A DNA stretch of 44,597 nucleotides, from IMG/VR virus record IMGVR_UViG_3300013132_000084, positions 1 to 44,597 of that record. One strand, given 5' to 3'. How positions within the stretch are numbered: the stretch's first letter is position 1; each line of letters starts with the position of its first letter. The position numbers and the translations under genes were made by a program. The DNA comes from a virus. Under the pieces are notes generated by a model. That model had not been told where the DNA came from and searched no databases. It saw only the letters and a program-made list of their open reading frames with translations. Below, in pieces: positions 2,906 to 17,156 of this stretch.

Positions 2906-4354
2906 ATGACAATTAATACTAATTGTAAAATATGTAATGAAAATTTTCAAACACTAAAGGGATTATCAACCCATATACAATATAAACATAAACTTACATC
3001 TGAACAATATACAATAAAATATATTCATGATGAAATTCGTCCGCAATGTAAATTGTGTTCTGAATTTACAAGATACGTATCATTTGAATTTAAAGAATAT
3101 TGTAAAGCCCATACCAAGGAAGCTTGTTCTGCGGCAGGTAAAACCGGTGGCAAAATAAAGAAAACTTGGAACAAAGGATTAACTAAAGAGAATGATGTCA
3201 GAATATATAATCAATCTTTATCGGTTGCTGGTTCTGCAAATCATTTCTATGGTCGTAAACATACAGAAGATACTAAAAGAAAAATTTCTATATTGAAAAC
3301 AATATCAGAGGATGAATTTAATAAAAGAATTGAATTGAGATCGAATGAATTTCGTTATTTATCAGATTACCAATCTTATACTAATAGACAGCATACAAAA
3401 TTAAAATTAGAATGCATTAAATGTTTTGGTAAACAAGAAAAGACGCTGCAAGCATATGAGCGTGGGGGTTTGTGTATATTTTGTTATCCTTTTATGGTTT
3501 CAAAAGATGAGATTCAAGTTGGAAACTATATAGAAAGTTTAGGATATCTCATTAAACGTAATAACAGAACTCTTATTTCTCCTAAAGAGCTAGACATAGT
3601 AGTTTTGGATAAGAATTTTGCTATTGAGTATAATGGATTATATTGGCACGATGTAGAAAAGGTTGGAAAGAATCACCATCAAGAAAAGACTAAAAAATGT
3701 AGAGAGATAAATTATTCTCTTTTTCATATCTTTTCTGATGAATGGGAGAGTAAATCTGAGATTGTAAAATCTATGATATCTAGCCGACTAAGATCTAACA
3801 ATATAGAAAACATTGATGCAAGAAAGTGTTCTGTAGTAGAGATCAAACCTCAACAGGCTCATAAATTTTTTGATTCATCGCACATTTCAGGGAATGTTCC
3901 TGCTAGCAAATATTTTGGATTAGAATATAGAGGAGATATTGTAGCAGCCATTTCATGGAGAGTTCCTCAGCAAAAGAAGAAATGGATCAAGAATAATCCT
4001 GATGTTATTGAGATAGCGAGATATGCTAATAAATTATATACAAATGTTCGAGGAGGCTTTAGTAAACTGCTTAAACATTCTATTAACAACTGGTTAGTTC
4101 CAGAAACAAAATATAGAAGAATAATAAGTTATTGTGATTTAAGATTTGGGTATGGAAATGTTTATCTTCAATCTGGATTTTCTTTGATTAAAGAAGATAC
4201 TGGTGTTAACTATTGGTATACTGATGGTAAGGTTAGATATCCCCGCTTTAAATTTCGTGCTACAAAAGATAAAACAGAAAAGCAGGTAGCAGAAGAAAAC
4301 AAGGTTTGGAAAGTATTCGGCTGTAGTAATGCTCTCTATGAGAGAGTCATATAA
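2906..4354 (+). CDS. Zinc-finger homing-type endonuclease (Vsr/PD-(D/E)XK-like)
   Basis: This 482-residue protein is probably a free-standing homing endonuclease. It begins with a C2H2 finger (CKIC...H...H, residues 7-28), then more Cys/His pairs (about 48-70 and 170-194). A short segment near residue 112 (HFYGRKHTEDTKRKIS) looks like a NUMOD3-type DNA-binding helix. The nuclease core is near 230-250: PKELDIVVLDKNFAIEYNG followed by LYWH, as in Vsr-like phage endonucleases. The long C-terminal half has the SYCDLRFGYGNVYLQSGF block often found with this nuclease. Ribosome site AGAGG lies 7 bases before the ATG. It sits alone between the capsid gene and unrelated genes and is more AT-rich, which fits a mobile insertion. 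Confidence 0.75.
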   Translation: MTINTNCKICNENFQTLKGLSTHIQYKHKLTSEQYTIKYIHDEIRPQCKLCSEFTRYVSFEFKEYCKAHTKEACSAAGKTGGKIKKTWNKGLTKENDVRIYNQSLSVAGSANHFYGRKHTEDTKRKISILKTISEDEFNKRIELRSNEFRYLSDYQSYTNRQHTKLKLECIKCFGKQEKTLQAYERGGLCIFCYPFMVSKDEIQVGNYIESLGYLIKRNNRTLISPKELDIVVLDKNFAIEYNGLYWHDVEKVGKNHHQEKTKKCREINYSLFHIFSDEWESKSEIVKSMISSRLRSNNIENIDARKCSVVEIKPQQAHKFFDSSHISGNVPASKYFGLEYRGDIVAAISWRVPQQKKKWIKNNPDVIEIARYANKLYTNVRGGFSKLLKHSINNWLVPETKYRRIISYCDLRFGYGNVYLQSGFSLIKEDTGVNYWYTDGKVRYPRFKFRATKDKTEKQVAEENKVWKVFGCSNALYERVI

Positions 4355-8600: not shown

Positions 8601-10295
8601 ATGGCACGCCCCGCAAAAAAAGATAAAGAAACAACCGCAGAAGCTTCTATGACAGAAGACTTTGCAAATGAATTAATTAAAGAAATTAACAAAACTCATA
8701 ATGAAAAAATTGCTTTCAATTTAGGAAGCGATGATGCTCCTACCAATGTTAGTAGATGGATTTCTACCGGTTCTCGTCAGTTAGATTATATCATCGCTAA
8801 TCGTAGAGATGGGGGAATGCCAGAAGGACGTATTGTAGAAATACAAGGTCCACCAGGTATCGGTAAATCAACCCTAATGGCTCAAATAGCACGTTCCACC
8901 CAAAGAATGGGTGGTATAGTTGTTTTCATTGATACTGAGAATGCGACCAATCCAGATACTCTTTCTAATATGGGAATTGATGTCGCAAGAAGATTTGTAT
9001 TCGTTCAAACTCCATGTACAGAGGAAATCCTTTCAATTATTGAAAGCACTATCCTTAAAGCCCGTACAATGACCAAAGACGTTCCTGTTACCGTTATTTG
9101 GGATAGCGTTTCTCAGTCTTCTCCAAAGGCAGAGTTGGAAGGTGACTATGATCAGAATACCATCGGTCTACAAGCCCGTGTTCTATCTAAGGGCATGAGA
9201 AAGATCGCTAACGTTATCGGTGGTCAGAAAGTCTTGTTGGTTCTTGTATCACAACAAAGAATGAAAATTGGCTGTGTTGGACCTGAGACAAATATTCAAT
9301 ATTCTTACTGTAACAAAATAAAAAATGAAACAATAAAACAAATGTTCAATGAAATGGGATATGAATTTGAACAAATGCCAACAAATCAACCAATCCCAGT
9401 AACAGGATGGGAAGTAAAAACTTTAGACGAAAAAGGAAATGTTCTTTGGAAAGATGTTAAAAATATTATAAGAAAACAAAATGCAGTTCATATGAAAATT
9501 ATCACTGCATTGTCATATACATTATCCTGCTCTCCTGAACACAAAATATATGTAAAGCATATAAGCTCTGATTCCCCCTTATATGAAGAAGTTGGAACAA
9601 TTTTTCAAAATGAAAAAGAATATGTTGTTTTAACTGAAAAAGGTTGGTCTTCATTTGAAATTTCAAAAATCGATGGAGAATTAGAGATTGCAGATTTAGA
9701 AGTCGCAGATTCTCATTCGTATTTAAGTAACGGCATTCTTTCACATAATACTATGTTTGGTGATCCGACTACAACATCTGGTGGTATGGCGATACCATAT
9801 TCTTCATCTGTTCGTATTCGTCTTGATGGCGGGTCAGCAATAAAGGATAAAGAAGAAAATACAATTGGTATTAATGTAACAGCAAGAACTATTAAGAATA
9901 AGGTTGCCAAACCATTCCGCAAGGTTGGTTTCCAAATAATGTTTGGCAAGGGAATCTATGAAAACGATGAAATCTTTGATCTTCTCCGGGAGTATTGTAA
10001 GAATTCAAAGCGGGGAGTAGAGGTAAACGGAAAAACAGTAAATCTTTCTGGGGATGCCGCTTGGAAAACTTTTACTGTTATGAACAACAAGACTGGTGAA
10101 ATAGAAACGGAAATTAAGTTTTACAAACAAGAGTTTATGCAGAAGGTAGTCAATAAACCAGAGTATTCTGATTATATCAATGCTTTAATGGATGCGGCAT
10201 TAATTCTAAATGCAGAAGAAAGTCTAGAAGAGCATTCAACATATGAAAGGTTAACAGATGGAGAAATGGCTGCGGAACAACAGGTTAATGCTTGA
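8601..10295 (+). CDS. uvsX: UvsX/RecA-type recombinase interrupted by a mini-intein
   Basis: The precursor is 564 residues; removing the intein (9273-9749) leaves a 405-residue recombinase, near T4 UvsX (391). It forms filaments on single-stranded DNA for strand exchange, replication restart and repair. Visible motifs: Walker A GPPGIGKST (83-91), IDTENA as the catalytic-Glu region (about 116-121), LLVLVSQQRMKIG before the intein, and MFGDPTTTSGG after it, which continues the RecA sequence exactly. The start at 8601 has an AGAGG ribosome site; the open frame reaches back to 8511, but that extension runs through the gp32 terminator and is rejected. It follows gp32 and precedes the dUTPase. Confidence 0.92.
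   Translation: MARPAKKDKETTAEASMTEDFANELIKEINKTHNEKIAFNLGSDDAPTNVSRWISTGSRQLDYIIANRRDGGMPEGRIVEIQGPPGIGKSTLMAQIARSTQRMGGIVVFIDTENATNPDTLSNMGIDVARRFVFVQTPCTEEILSIIESTILKARTMTKDVPVTVIWDSVSQSSPKAELEGDYDQNTIGLQARVLSKGMRKIANVIGGQKVLLVLVSQQRMKIGCVGPETNIQYSYCNKIKNETIKQMFNEMGYEFEQMPTNQPIPVTGWEVKTLDEKGNVLWKDVKNIIRKQNAVHMKIITALSYTLSCSPEHKIYVKHISSDSPLYEEVGTIFQNEKEYVVLTEKGWSSFEISKIDGELEIADLEVADSHSYLSNGILSHNTMFGDPTTTSGGMAIPYSSSVRIRLDGGSAIKDKEENTIGINVTARTIKNKVAKPFRKVGFQIMFGKGIYENDEIFDLLREYCKNSKRGVEVNGKTVNLSGDAAWKTFTVMNNKTGEIETEIKFYKQEFMQKVVNKPEYSDYINALMDAALILNAEESLEEHSTYERLTDGEMAAEQQVNA
9273..9749 (+). mobile_element. Mini-intein in UvsX (159 residues, no endonuclease)
   Basis: The insert begins with Cys1 (CVGPETNIQYSY, block A) and ends ILSHN, followed by extein Thr+1. 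Block B is TLSCSPEHKIYV with the usual Thr and His; block F is IADLEVADSHSYLSNGILSHN-like with the penultimate His and terminal Asn. The sequence QRMKIG is joined to TMFGDP by splicing, rebuilding a conserved RecA segment. The length leaves only the splicing domain; there is no room for a homing endonuclease. The insert is more A-rich than the flanking exteins. Confidence 0.93.
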
Positions 10296-13662: not shown

Positions 13663-16107
13663 ATGAGCAAATCTCCAAAATTAAAAGACTTATTAGAAAA
13701 TGCCGGAGATCCAATGGGTGATCCATCCTTTCGAGGTGGTCCATATGGATTTGGCGGGATTCGACAACTTTATGTAATAAATCCAGCTACTCAAGCAATT
13801 GCAAATCAAGAAAACGAAGACAATCCTCTTGATATAGATAGATTAAGTTGGGTTATGAACAAATATCGTAGACTTCCGCCATTGGAACCTCTTGATTTAA
13901 ATCCAAGATTACCAGCTCCAGCCGCAATCAAAGAAGAAGACGAAAAAAATTTAGAAGAAGAACTTCTCCTTGAAAGAGAACCTTCCGATGGTTTTTATAG
14001 AGATCTTCCAGGATATCCTCCTCAACCCAATGCTCTTGTTATGCAAGTTGATCATGTCCCGGATCCTGATGGTAAAATTAATTTAGATCCATTATCTGGA
14101 CAACCTTTAGAATTCTTAGGACCAACATTAGATTTTGCTCCAATAGATTCTATCGAAACGGAAAATTGGAATGATCTTAGTCCAGAAGAAGTAGGTGTTG
14201 TTGTAAGAACTCAACAATCTATGGAAAATGAAGGAACAGAATTACAAGAATTGTTAACTCCAGGTTCTGGACCAATGATGCGCGGCGCAAATAATGTTCA
14301 AGTTAATTCCTTAGCTCGTCCAGCACTTTATATTCCTCCCGAAGAAAAACCATATCTTGATGAACCTATCAATCCATTAGGAGGAATGGGGGCTATTGGT
14401 TTTCCAAGAAAGTATGTTCCAGATGACTGGGAAGTACGAATGAGACAAATAGATCAATATAGTATGGCTACTCAAGATATTATGGGAAGTCGTCGTCTAC
14501 AATTGCATCAAAATCCGACAATGATGCCTGAAGAAAATACTTATAATGAAGAAAAAGAAGTTTTGGATGAAGAAGCTATGACAAAAGAAAATATTTTAGA
14601 AACACCAAAATTACCGCTAGAGCAAAAGGAGCTAAGACCAAAAAGAAAAAGGTCTACTACAGCTCTTCATGAAATGATTGATGCAATTGTTTCTGAAATT
14701 GTTTTACCATCTCCAGCAGAAACAGGATTAGGCGGAGCCAAAGCTTTTAAAAGAAGTCAAGGAAACGTACAAGCTGATTTACGCAAATTAGATCCAAATG
14801 ATCCAGGAATTTTGAAGGATGTTGAAATTGTTCAACTTGATGAGGCTCTTGAAGAAGCCAAGTTCTGTATTAATTCTAAAGAAGAAAGAAAAGAAAAATT
14901 CAAGAAACACGTTAGACCAACAAAACCAAAGACTTGGGCAAAAGCTAAAAGAATGGCTAAAGAAGAATTTCATTTAAAAACAAATAAACGAATGATGAAT
15001 TGGCCAAGTGTTAGAGCTGTTGCTCGTGCAGAAGAAATATATAGAAGCATGGGTGGTAAATGGAGAAAGCAAAAGAAACGTGATCCATTTGCTAAAGATG
15101 CTGCTGGTAACTTAAAAGAATCTATTTCTTTAGATGAGGTTATTAATACGGAACTTCTTTTAGAAAAAAATGTTCCTACTAACAAAGCTTTATGGAGCCG
15201 AGCTAAAGCTGCTGCCCGAGCTAAATTTGATGTATATCCTTGTGTTCCTCTAGCTTCTAAAGCTTTAACTAAAGATGGCTGGAAAACATATAATGAATTA
15301 TCTATTGGTGATGTTATATGCACTTATAACATTTCAGAAGATTGTTTAGAATGGAAAACAATACAGCATTTGCATTTTTATAAAGATGCTGAAACTATAA
15401 ACATTTATACTCCGCAAACTAATTTTAATTTTGTTTGTACTCCAAATCATAAATGGGTATTAAAGAAGAATTGGGCAGATATAAATGAAGAAGATAAAAG
15501 AGGCTATCGTTATTGGAAAGAAGACCATTTAGTAGAAGCAAAAGATATTAATAAAAGAATGAAGATCATAACTGCTGCTAAAATGAAGAATAATAGTTCT
15601 GGTCCAATATTATTAGAAAATTTCTCAAAGTATGGTGAATCTTGGGTGCAAAAAGTTACAAGAATGACAAATCAACAGCGTGAAGCATTTTTTGCTGCGG
15701 CAATTGTTTATGATGGACATGAAAAATTATCTGAAAGCAAAGAAGAGCAGGCAGTAATTCGTTATGGATTTAGTCAAAAAAATTCAGATCATGGAGAAGC
15801 TGTAGAGATTTGTGCAGCTCTCCTAGGATATCGAGTCTCTTTTAGAGATAAAAAATATAATTCTACAATGACAGATTGGACTTTTTCTACAAGAAATTCT
15901 CAAGGAACAAACAATGTATTTACAAAGCCAGATATAATTCAGGATGTCTGGTGTCCGCAAACGGAAAATTCTACTTGGCTAATGAAACAAGATGGTATGA
16001 TTACAATTACTGGTAATTCTGCCTATGCAAATGCCTGGGCATCCAAGTGGTATAAGAGTAAAGGTGGCGGCTGGAGAAAAACTAAAGGAAAGAAGAAGAA
16101 GAAGTGA
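13663..16107 (+). CDS. Lys-rich repeat-domain protein interrupted by an intein
   Basis: The precursor has 814 residues; splicing out 15241-16017 gives 555. The N-terminal 370 residues are Pro/Glu-rich and not recognised. The C-terminal part holds two copies of a basic domain: one with WAKAKRMAKEEF...WPSVRAVARAEEIYRSMGGKWRKQK, the other with LWSRAKAAARAKFDVYP joined after splicing to SAYANAWASKWYKSKGGGWRK. This domain looks like one seen in phages and giant viruses, function unknown, possibly nucleic-acid binding. The protein ends in KGKKKKK. No ribosome site precedes the ATG, and a TTGGAA-16-TATCAT sequence abuts it, so the true start may differ. The stop overlaps the next start. Confidence 0.8.
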   Translation: MSKSPKLKDLLENAGDPMGDPSFRGGPYGFGGIRQLYVINPATQAIANQENEDNPLDIDRLSWVMNKYRRLPPLEPLDLNPRLPAPAAIKEEDEKNLEEELLLEREPSDGFYRDLPGYPPQPNALVMQVDHVPDPDGKINLDPLSGQPLEFLGPTLDFAPIDSIETENWNDLSPEEVGVVVRTQQSMENEGTELQELLTPGSGPMMRGANNVQVNSLARPALYIPPEEKPYLDEPINPLGGMGAIGFPRKYVPDDWEVRMRQIDQYSMATQDIMGSRRLQLHQNPTMMPEENTYNEEKEVLDEEAMTKENILETPKLPLEQKELRPKRKRSTTALHEMIDAIVSEIVLPSPAETGLGGAKAFKRSQGNVQADLRKLDPNDPGILKDVEIVQLDEALEEAKFCINSKEERKEKFKKHVRPTKPKTWAKAKRMAKEEFHLKTNKRMMNWPSVRAVARAEEIYRSMGGKWRKQKKRDPFAKDAAGNLKESISLDEVINTELLLEKNVPTNKALWSRAKAAARAKFDVYPCVPLASKALTKDGWKTYNELSIGDVICTYNISEDCLEWKTIQHLHFYKDAETINIYTPQTNFNFVCTPNHKWVLKKNWADINEEDKRGYRYWKEDHLVEAKDINKRMKIITAAKMKNNSSGPILLENFSKYGESWVQKVTRMTNQQREAFFAAAIVYDGHEKLSESKEEQAVIRYGFSQKNSDHGEAVEICAALLGYRVSFRDKKYNSTMTDWTFSTRNSQGTNNVFTKPDIIQDVWCPQTENSTWLMKQDGMITITGNSAYANAWASKWYKSKGGGWRKTKGKKKKK
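15241..16017 (+). mobile_element. Intein (259 residues) in the Lys-rich domain protein
   Basis: It starts with Cys1 (CVPLASKALTKDGWKTYNEL, block A) and a block with IGDVICTYN, has block B NFVCTPNHKWVL, and ends TWLMKQDGMITITGN before extein Ser+1. The penultimate residue is Gly, not His, as in several phage inteins with the ...TTENGTW...TGN ending. The middle has an AAAIVYDGHE segment and GFSQKNSDHGEAVEICAALLGY, resembling a reduced LAGLIDADG (DOD) endonuclease, probably inactive. The insertion splits the conserved YP-SAYAN motif of the host domain. Confidence 0.92.
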
Positions 16108-17156
16108 TGAGTAAAGATAATATAGAAATACTATATGAAGTTTACGCTGCTTCAGGTCTTGGAAAGTGGTTCGCTCAAGATTGGAAAGATATTAGCCGTA
16201 AAAAAAAGGGTGGGGGTCATCCTTCCTGTGGTGCATCTGCTGGCAAGGGTGTACGTAAGAAGAGCAAATCAAAGAAATATCCCAAGTGTGTTCCCGCCTC
16301 TCGTGCTGCTGGTATGAGTAAAAAAGAAAAATCCAGTGCAGTTAAAAGAAAGCGTGCAGCGGGAAATAAAGGAAAAAAACCAAATTGGGTTAGTACAAAG
16401 CCGAAGAAAGAAGTATTTATTGCTACGGAGAATAACATGAGAGTTAATGAATTATTAAAGTTTTTAAATGAAGAAGCAAAGCCATCTAAAAAAATGGTAA
16501 AAGAAAATAATATTGTTGAAACCATTAGAGCTTTGGTTCTTGAAGAGTTAACTAAAGAAAATGCCTCGCCAACAGGTACAACAGGTACAGGTACTCCTCC
16601 TGCTGCCGCCCCAGCCGCTGGTGCTGCGCCCGCTGCTCCTGCTGGTCAAGCCACTCCTGCCCCTAATGCTACTCCTCCCGCACCCGCACCAGCAGCCGGT
16701 CAAGCCACTCCTGCCCCTAATGCTACTCCTCCTGCCGATCCTACTGCTCCAAATGTAGATACGCCCCCCGCTCCCAAAGTTGAAGAATCGAAAACTTTAG
16801 AAGAAGATCTTGATGAAGCTTTCGGTTTAGAAGAACAACAATACGGTACATATGGAAATCATTCTACTGATGCTGGACTTCTTGGATTTCCCAAACAAGG
16901 TAACAGAGATGGCAGAGATGGCAGAGATGGCAGAGATGACGAAGGTGATGTAAGACCAAGAGGTGATTATGAAGAACTTGAGGAATGTGGTTCTAGATAT
17001 GAGAATGAATTAGAAGAGAATTTATTTGCTGAGAGCAAGGTAGTTCGTGGTCGAGTTCTTAGTGAGTCTGCGAAGAATGGTGAGCTTTTAATGCAAGAGC
17101 GCCGCAGAAAGCAACTCATCCAAGTTCAAAATAAAATTCTTTACTCAAAACGCTGA
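16107..17156 (+). CDS. Basic Cys/Lys domain protein with Pro/Ala linker
   Basis: The ATG at 16107 overlaps the preceding stop (TGATG). Residues 1-105 are very basic and include GLGKWFAQDWKDISRKKKGGG, PSCGASAGKG, YPKCVPASRAAGMSKKEK and AGNKGKKPNW; this pattern occurs in phage and giant-virus proteins, often with the Lys-rich domain of the preceding gene. Then come a helical segment (MRVNELLKFLNEEAK), a Pro/Ala/Thr linker (about 150-225) with a 35-base DNA repeat, an RDG repeat (about 267-277), and a helical basic C-terminus ending YSKR. Probably a virion or DNA-associated protein; function unknown. Confidence 0.75.
   Translation: MSKDNIEILYEVYAASGLGKWFAQDWKDISRKKKGGGHPSCGASAGKGVRKKSKSKKYPKCVPASRAAGMSKKEKSSAVKRKRAAGNKGKKPNWVSTKPKKEVFIATENNMRVNELLKFLNEEAKPSKKMVKENNIVETIRALVLEELTKENASPTGTTGTGTPPAAAPAAGAAPAAPAGQATPAPNATPPAPAPAAGQATPAPNATPPADPTAPNVDTPPAPKVEESKTLEEDLDEAFGLEEQQYGTYGNHSTDAGLLGFPKQGNRDGRDGRDGRDDEGDVRPRGDYEELEECGSRYENELEENLFAESKVVRGRVLSESAKNGELLMQERRRKQLIQVQNKILYSKR
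16644..16732 (+). repeat. 35-base direct repeat in the linker
   Basis: Two identical 35-base copies (16644-16678 and 16698-16732) encode GQATPAPNATPP. They are more GC-rich than the surroundings. Confidence 0.9.
16904..16939 (+). repeat. 9-base tandem repeat (RDG)
   Basis: CAGAGATGG or close variants occur four times in a row, encoding a short Arg-Asp-Gly stretch in the same gene as the linker repeat. Confidence 0.85.

Follow-up and report, generated by a model that had tools for sequence, protein, structure and literature searches.

Among annotated sequences, the nearest to the intein described here are phage inteins of PolA, portal and TerL. The PolA inteins of Justusliebigvirus and Phapecoctavirus phages are full-length homologues, with 25-27% identity (E ~1e-17), and one PolA relative is annotated as 'intein-containing DNA polymerase precursor'. 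The PolA inteins of PaulScherrer, ESCO5 and phi92 share with it Cys at position 1, H-x-W in block B, Cys at F:4, the pattern VWCPQTE...W(V/L)M.Q...ITITGN and a penultimate Gly. They differ by the gene and site that they occupy and by their +1 residue, which is Cys rather than Ser. Similarly, the inteins of the Gordonia phage portal (Lahirium/Woes), of TerL (GMA3) and of PolA in KIL3 and nepoznato have Cys1, the H-x-W of block B, the F:4 Cys and a TGN end, but they are longer, reside in other genes and sites and are 22-30% identical. The GMA3 TerL intein reads EHKW and LWCP and has the same TGN end. Cys1 is present in all five annotated relatives that we examined.

Class 3 inteins, including those of the Bethlehem and mycobacterial DnaB proteins and of AceL NrdHF, resemble our intein in their WCT triad (MCT in AceL NrdHF), Ser+1, which is usual in that class (PMC5222942, PMC7891396), and HINT fold. 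In contrast with the invariant Cys1 found here, class 3 inteins are described as devoid of a position-1 nucleophile (PMC5050341, PMC3196547, PMC7664689). A 2020 census defined the class by the absence of an N-terminal Cys (PMC7891396); a group combining Cys1 with the triad would thus be omitted from it by construction. The Bethlehem gp51 RDF intein is likewise a phage intein with a penultimate Gly; it belongs to class 1, splices and lies in a different host gene (PMC5050341). A phage intein ending in Gly has been reported to splice, and a Gly-to-His change to slow splicing (PMC5050341). The penultimate Gly pointed out by an earlier sequence-only reading of our locus, and visible in the TGN end of its translation, is a known phage intein variant. 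Tori and Perler in 2011 reportedly noted mixed class 1 and class 3 marks in a few inteins; the DUF5872 site is a different one. The kind of element analysed here is already known; its insertion site in the DUF5872 domain is new.

The window, i.e. the whole stretch of viral DNA that was analysed, is 44,597 bases long. Among its PHROG matches are a major head protein, a baseplate hub protein, a single-strand DNA binding protein and a UvsX-like recombinase, which suggests that the virus is a T4-like tailed phage. An identical copy of the intein is present on a second contig, IMGVR_UViG_3300013131_000215. The features of the locus are as follows, with block numbering (A:1, B:7, B:10, B:12, F:4, G:5) after PMC5222942 and PMC5050341.

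13663-16107, plus strand: host gene, open for 814 codons (814-residue precursor, predicted spliced product of 555 residues)
14914-15063, plus strand: first, intein-free and diverged domain copy (PTKPKTW...NWPSVRAVARAEEIYRSMGGKW; tblastn E 2e-4)
15169-15240, plus strand: N-extein half of domain copy 2, with FDVYP at its end and Pro at -1
15241-16017, plus strand: intein of 259 residues (C1...GN259), precursor residues 527-785, translated as CVPLASKALT...MITITGN
15241-15243, plus strand: Cys1 (A:1), in 32/32 inteins
15439-15456, plus strand: block B TPNHKW with T67 (B:7), H70 (B:10) and W72 (B:12), each in 32/32
15613-15885, plus strand: endonuclease-like insert, one alpha-beta-beta-alpha-beta-beta unit, missing from five mini-inteins
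15688-15717, plus strand: LAGLIDADG-like motif FFAAAIVYDG, with Y157, D158 and G159 in 27/27
15952-15954, plus strand: C238 (F:4) in the VWC of block F, in 32/32
16009-16017, plus strand: end of block G, with T257 (G:5), G258 and N259, each in 32/32
16018-16104, plus strand: C-extein, with Ser+1, SAYANAWASKWYKSKGGGW and a Lys-rich tail
16158-16409, plus strand: module B, the second half of DUF5872 (KWFAQDWKDI...YPKCVPASRAAGM), within the ORF that follows (16104-17156); phrog_23735, E 3e-13

The insert is very probably a phage-type homing intein lodged in the VYP/SAYAN turn of a DUF5872 domain, between Pro and Ser. Of the two domain copies in the host protein, it interrupts the C-terminal one. 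The sequence-only reading had described the domain as repeated, and the first copy is indeed real though diverged: its local alignment score, 86, was reached by none of 5000 shuffles. After translation, the intein would cut itself out and join YP to SAYAN, giving a product that spans FDVYPSAYANAW and restoring a two-helix basic hairpin. Removal of 259 of the 814 residues yields the 555-residue product proposed earlier, with YP rejoined to SAYAN. On the DNA side, the single-motif LAGLIDADG domain of the intein, probably as a dimer, would cut intein-free copies of the site, and repair of the cut would copy the intein in.

We scanned uncultured viral contigs with the DNA pattern TGN/SAYAN and obtained 48 loci, 45 of which bear a homologous intein at the same junction, read in frame. 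The others are two chance matches (L021 and L059) and a remnant (L026). Both junctions lie within the sequence for 39 of the 45 loci, the remaining six running off the end of the stretch, and all 39 inteins are inserted after ...YP. They include 32 distinct complete sequences, counting that of the window, to which the lowest identity is ~31%; one relative, which occupies this site on a different contig, is 60-62% identical. When close relatives were sought with single proteins, the only matches were the virus of the window itself and a second virus. Five members lack the endonuclease segment and are thus mini-inteins (L030, L034, L051 and L055, of 138 residues, and L031, of 163 residues). The tree requires two changes to account for them. 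L031 is separate from the CLP-type minis, so the segment was likely lost twice, although the branches of the tree are long. The same pattern, searched as the exact motif, gave 24 matches and no intein in 84,980 cellular genomes, and no match in plasmids.

In the annotated phage collection, no phage was found with an intein at the DUF5872 site, and the empty site occurs as FDVYPSAYANGW in S-BM3, TVYPSAYANAW in C72C1 and KVYPSAYANAF in DSL-LC04. In these homologues, YPSAYAN is uninterrupted at the very junction predicted from the window. When the two flanks of an intein-bearing locus are joined, the resulting sequence can be aligned over the junction to an intein-free locus with 81-85% nucleotide identity in five pairs (L037/L139, L048/S-BM3, L019/S-BM3, L033/S-BM3 and L032/L101). 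Site and boundaries are thus observed in the sequences rather than assumed. Splicing being here a prediction from sequence, the insert might instead be retained stably as part of the host protein, but this is highly improbable: all the catalytic residues are invariant, the fold is of the HINT type, the insert is homologous to annotated inteins, and intein-free alleles display the exact junction. We rejected the stable domain on account of these empty alleles. The original identification of an intein at 15241-16017 is upheld by blocks A, B, F and G, the empty alleles and the homologous insert in 45 of 48 loci, which greatly exceeds what chance would give.

We compared codons -4 to +7 between copies with the intein (32) and copies without it (80). 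Trp occupies position seven of the C-extein, with TGG two codons past Asn, in 31 of the former vs 37 of the latter, and for the Ser following the junction TCN codons are favoured over AGY in intein-bearing copies. These biases may reflect the specificity of the endonuclease or lineage, the two being confounded. Copies of the LCPRGKAAAK type, which are common among intein-free ones, harbour no intein.

The L026 contig contains a 69-residue ORF (L026:3400-3570) in which the start of the N-extein is followed by no more of the intein than its final residues (AMVQDGVICVTGN) and then by the C-extein in frame. This ORF is either what a deletion has left behind or an artefact of assembly. A further intein-like C-terminus (PVYCLTVPTSFFLVRRNNKIMVTGN; weak match) is found on the minus strand at L026:6227-6316.

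Searches of Pfam, NCBIfam and PDB sequences with the window intein alone returned nothing above the cut-offs, and relatives were required: PF14890 (Intein_splicing) scores 11.4 bits for the window intein vs a cut-off of 35.8, and it matches 18 of the 32 members at E <= 0.1. We modelled the intein with AlphaFold2 (pLDDT 90.3). The model consists of a HINT splicing fold and one helix-strand-strand-helix-strand-strand unit, and it matches HINT structures and endonuclease-bearing inteins. The top structural neighbour by Z is 6zgq, the class 3 AceL NrdHF intein (Z 17.5, entries within 1 Z being tied). The model also matches 7qsu (TliVMA; Z 16.6 over 235 residues, rmsd 3.8) and PI-SceI (E 1.9e-8).

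Ten intein residues are invariant in the 32 sequences (C1, T67, H70, W72, V236, W237, C238, T257, G258 and N259), as are Ser+1, Tyr-2 and Pro-1 of the exteins. The general features of inteins are thus found in all 32, namely an N-terminal nucleophile, B:7 Thr, B:10 His, a C-terminal Asn and a +1 nucleophile. The family also combines the marks of two splicing classes: the position-1 nucleophile of class 1, Cys1, and the Trp B:12/Cys F:4/Thr G:5 triad of class 3 (W72, C238 and T257) are both present in 32/32. Either cysteine might start splicing, because Cys1 and C238, within its full triad, are both invariant; we lean towards Cys1, as in class 1, over C238 or a relay through both. Tentatively, our intein might rather be a class 3 intein that has kept its position-1 Cys, C238 starting the reaction and Cys1 being dispensable. 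The complete triad with Ser+1 in all 32 members and the AceL NrdHF structure as the top neighbour by Z, albeit tied with entries within 1 Z, speak for this reading. So does Pro-1, as proline at that position hinders Cys1 chemistry, and its presence beside Cys1 makes the combination of marks from the two classes more puzzling. Against it, Cys1 is invariant in the 32 sequences and is found in the five annotated relatives as well, and the published definitions exclude a position-1 nucleophile from class 3 (PMC5050341, PMC3196547). It is rather improbable that both cysteines are needed and act in a relay, with the N-extein passing from Cys1 to Cys F:4 and then to Ser+1, as a hybrid route in a large group of phage inteins. 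If true, this would represent a living intermediate between classes 1 and 3 and would have implications for the possible derivation of class 3 from class 1. The PolA, portal and TerL relatives, which have both Cys1 and the triad, indicate that the mixture belongs to a broader phage group. With this invariant mixture, the origin of class 3 inteins, which is debated, can be tested directly.

The central segment of the intein had been described as a worn LAGLIDADG endonuclease. This does not agree with the conservation of the segment. Y157, D158 and G159 of the LAGLIDADG-like motif (FLASAIVYDG) are kept in all 27 full-length members, in which F and QK are also fully conserved. In the model, the unit comprises helices 144-158 and 182-194 and strands 159-163, 173-179, 198-204 and 207-216, with the motif on helix 144-158. 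It has the alpha-beta-beta-alpha-beta-beta core of LAGLIDADG proteins, and the motif ends in an acidic residue and Gly; no Pfam LAGLIDADG family is among the matches of the 32 members. Omega values for residues 125-215 are ~0.04-0.16 in pairs with usable dS, i.e. no more relaxed than those of the splicing domain. The segment is thus under strong purifying selection and is not visibly worn. Most inteins carry two LAGLIDADG motifs. The short appearance of the segment is due to the presence of one motif instead of two: it is a single-motif LAGLIDADG-type domain, which would have to act as a dimer.

We also compared synonymous divergence between inteins and their flanks. In three pairs, the intein dS is far below most flank values. 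For L052/L054, it is 0.23, vs 2.55 for the N-extein, 0.61 for the C-extein and saturation or >2 for most neighbours, most flanks being at 2.3 or more. For L015/L049, it is 0.08, vs 2.10 for the C-extein, 0.6-1.5 for neighbours and 0.26 for the N-extein (31 codons). For L033/L048, it is 0.24, vs 0.95 for the C-extein and a saturated N-extein. This points to recent transfer between viruses, which is at odds with a worn endonuclease and gives indirect support to cutting of the intein-free allele. In the L018/L045, L023/L041 and L019/L033 pairs, there is little or no gap between the intein and its flanks, which indicates that transfer is episodic. The close pairs could in part result from whole-domain recombination and not from homing, as the N-extein dS of L015/L049 is also low (0.26).

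A splicing-competent intein with a dead endonuclease, propagated by vertical inheritance or when its host gene recombines in the ordinary way, would be compatible with the single motif, the replacement of the Gly of LAGLIDADG by Ala or Ser, the loss of the insert in the five mini-inteins and the flank-like dS of L018/L045 and L019/L033. We consider it unlikely, however, in view of the three pairs with low intein dS, the low omega values, the full conservation of YDG, F and QK in 27/27 and the occupation of one site across very different proteins and viruses. A homing intein with an active endonuclease remains our preferred interpretation, and the intein belongs to a recently mobile phage clade. 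This clade is a good natural homing system, as it has full-length members as well as minis, alleles with and without the intein, and transfers of recent date.

The host domain corresponds to the first half of Pfam DUF5872 (PF19197). PF19197 gives no match in the unjoined window because the intein splits the domain; the joined copy scores 22.9 bits vs a cut-off of 27.5, and L119, an intein-free and naturally fused relative, scores 45.1 bits, above the cut-off. This single Pfam family covers a pair of separable but tightly linked modules, A (LW..AKA.AK.KF.VYPSAYAN...YK..GG.W) and B (GLGKWF.E.WVD.KTGK.CGR...YPACRP). Of the 132 loci with A, 114 also have B, the two lying in one protein, in either order, or in adjacent genes as in the window; DUF6321 is a third companion. 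MAFFT placed the YPSAYAN of A onto the YPACRP of B, and the two modules may be distantly related. A further recurring basic module (KRDDPARRKNFRARHNCD...), which matches phrog_7595 only, lies beside A in L018, L042, L045, L052, L054, L056, L071 and L099.

Module A is predicted to form two helices (8-21 and 28-40; pLDDT 81) joined by a turn that contains YPS; the intein would thus sit between the helices, in that turn. A search for PDB folds similar to this two-helix domain gave one candidate chain and no match with Z >= 2. Weak fold matches include a DUF5872 protein from Chrysochromulina ericina virus, and the domain has been listed for a haptophyte giant virus too (PMC12085832). The suspicion that the domain is more conserved than its Lys-rich appearance implies proved well founded, as DUF5872 is present in phages, cyanophages and algal giant viruses, with the intein in its best-conserved motif. 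The further suggestion that the intein may mark a functional site is conjectural. Where loci were retrieved by means of YPSAYAN itself, its conservation is a circular finding; among copies found by similarity, CRP-2 has WPSAYAS, P-TIM68 is devoid of the motif and the first window copy has WPSVRAV. Conservation of the motif is thus strong, not absolute. In annotated phages, module A is often set among head and packaging genes: it lies close to the small and large terminase genes (Kyanoviridae), between the scaffold and major capsid genes (P-SCSP2) or beside the major capsid gene (DSL-LC04). From this neighbourhood and the charge of the domain alone, we infer a possible role in head assembly or DNA packaging.

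As a rule, inteins are described from enzymes that act in nucleic-acid metabolism. The single clade analysed here occupies, in at least 45 viral contigs, a very small basic domain without known enzymatic role. Its occupancy marks DUF5872 as a widely shared target kept by many viruses.

Three other features of the window are worth mentioning. The major head protein (gene at 866-2782) has 638 residues, its best-scoring PHROG stretch being residues 358-620 only; inspection by eye revealed no intein blocks, and the protein may hold an extra domain. Directly after the head protein gene, at 2906-4354, lies a free-standing gene of the homing-endonuclease type, coding for 482 residues (phrog_3339, E 2e-67). 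Finally, another intein, a mini-intein of 159 residues at 9273-9749, interrupts the UvsX/RecA-like gene; it has a canonical SHN/T end and matches the NCBIfam model intein_Cterm above the cut-off.
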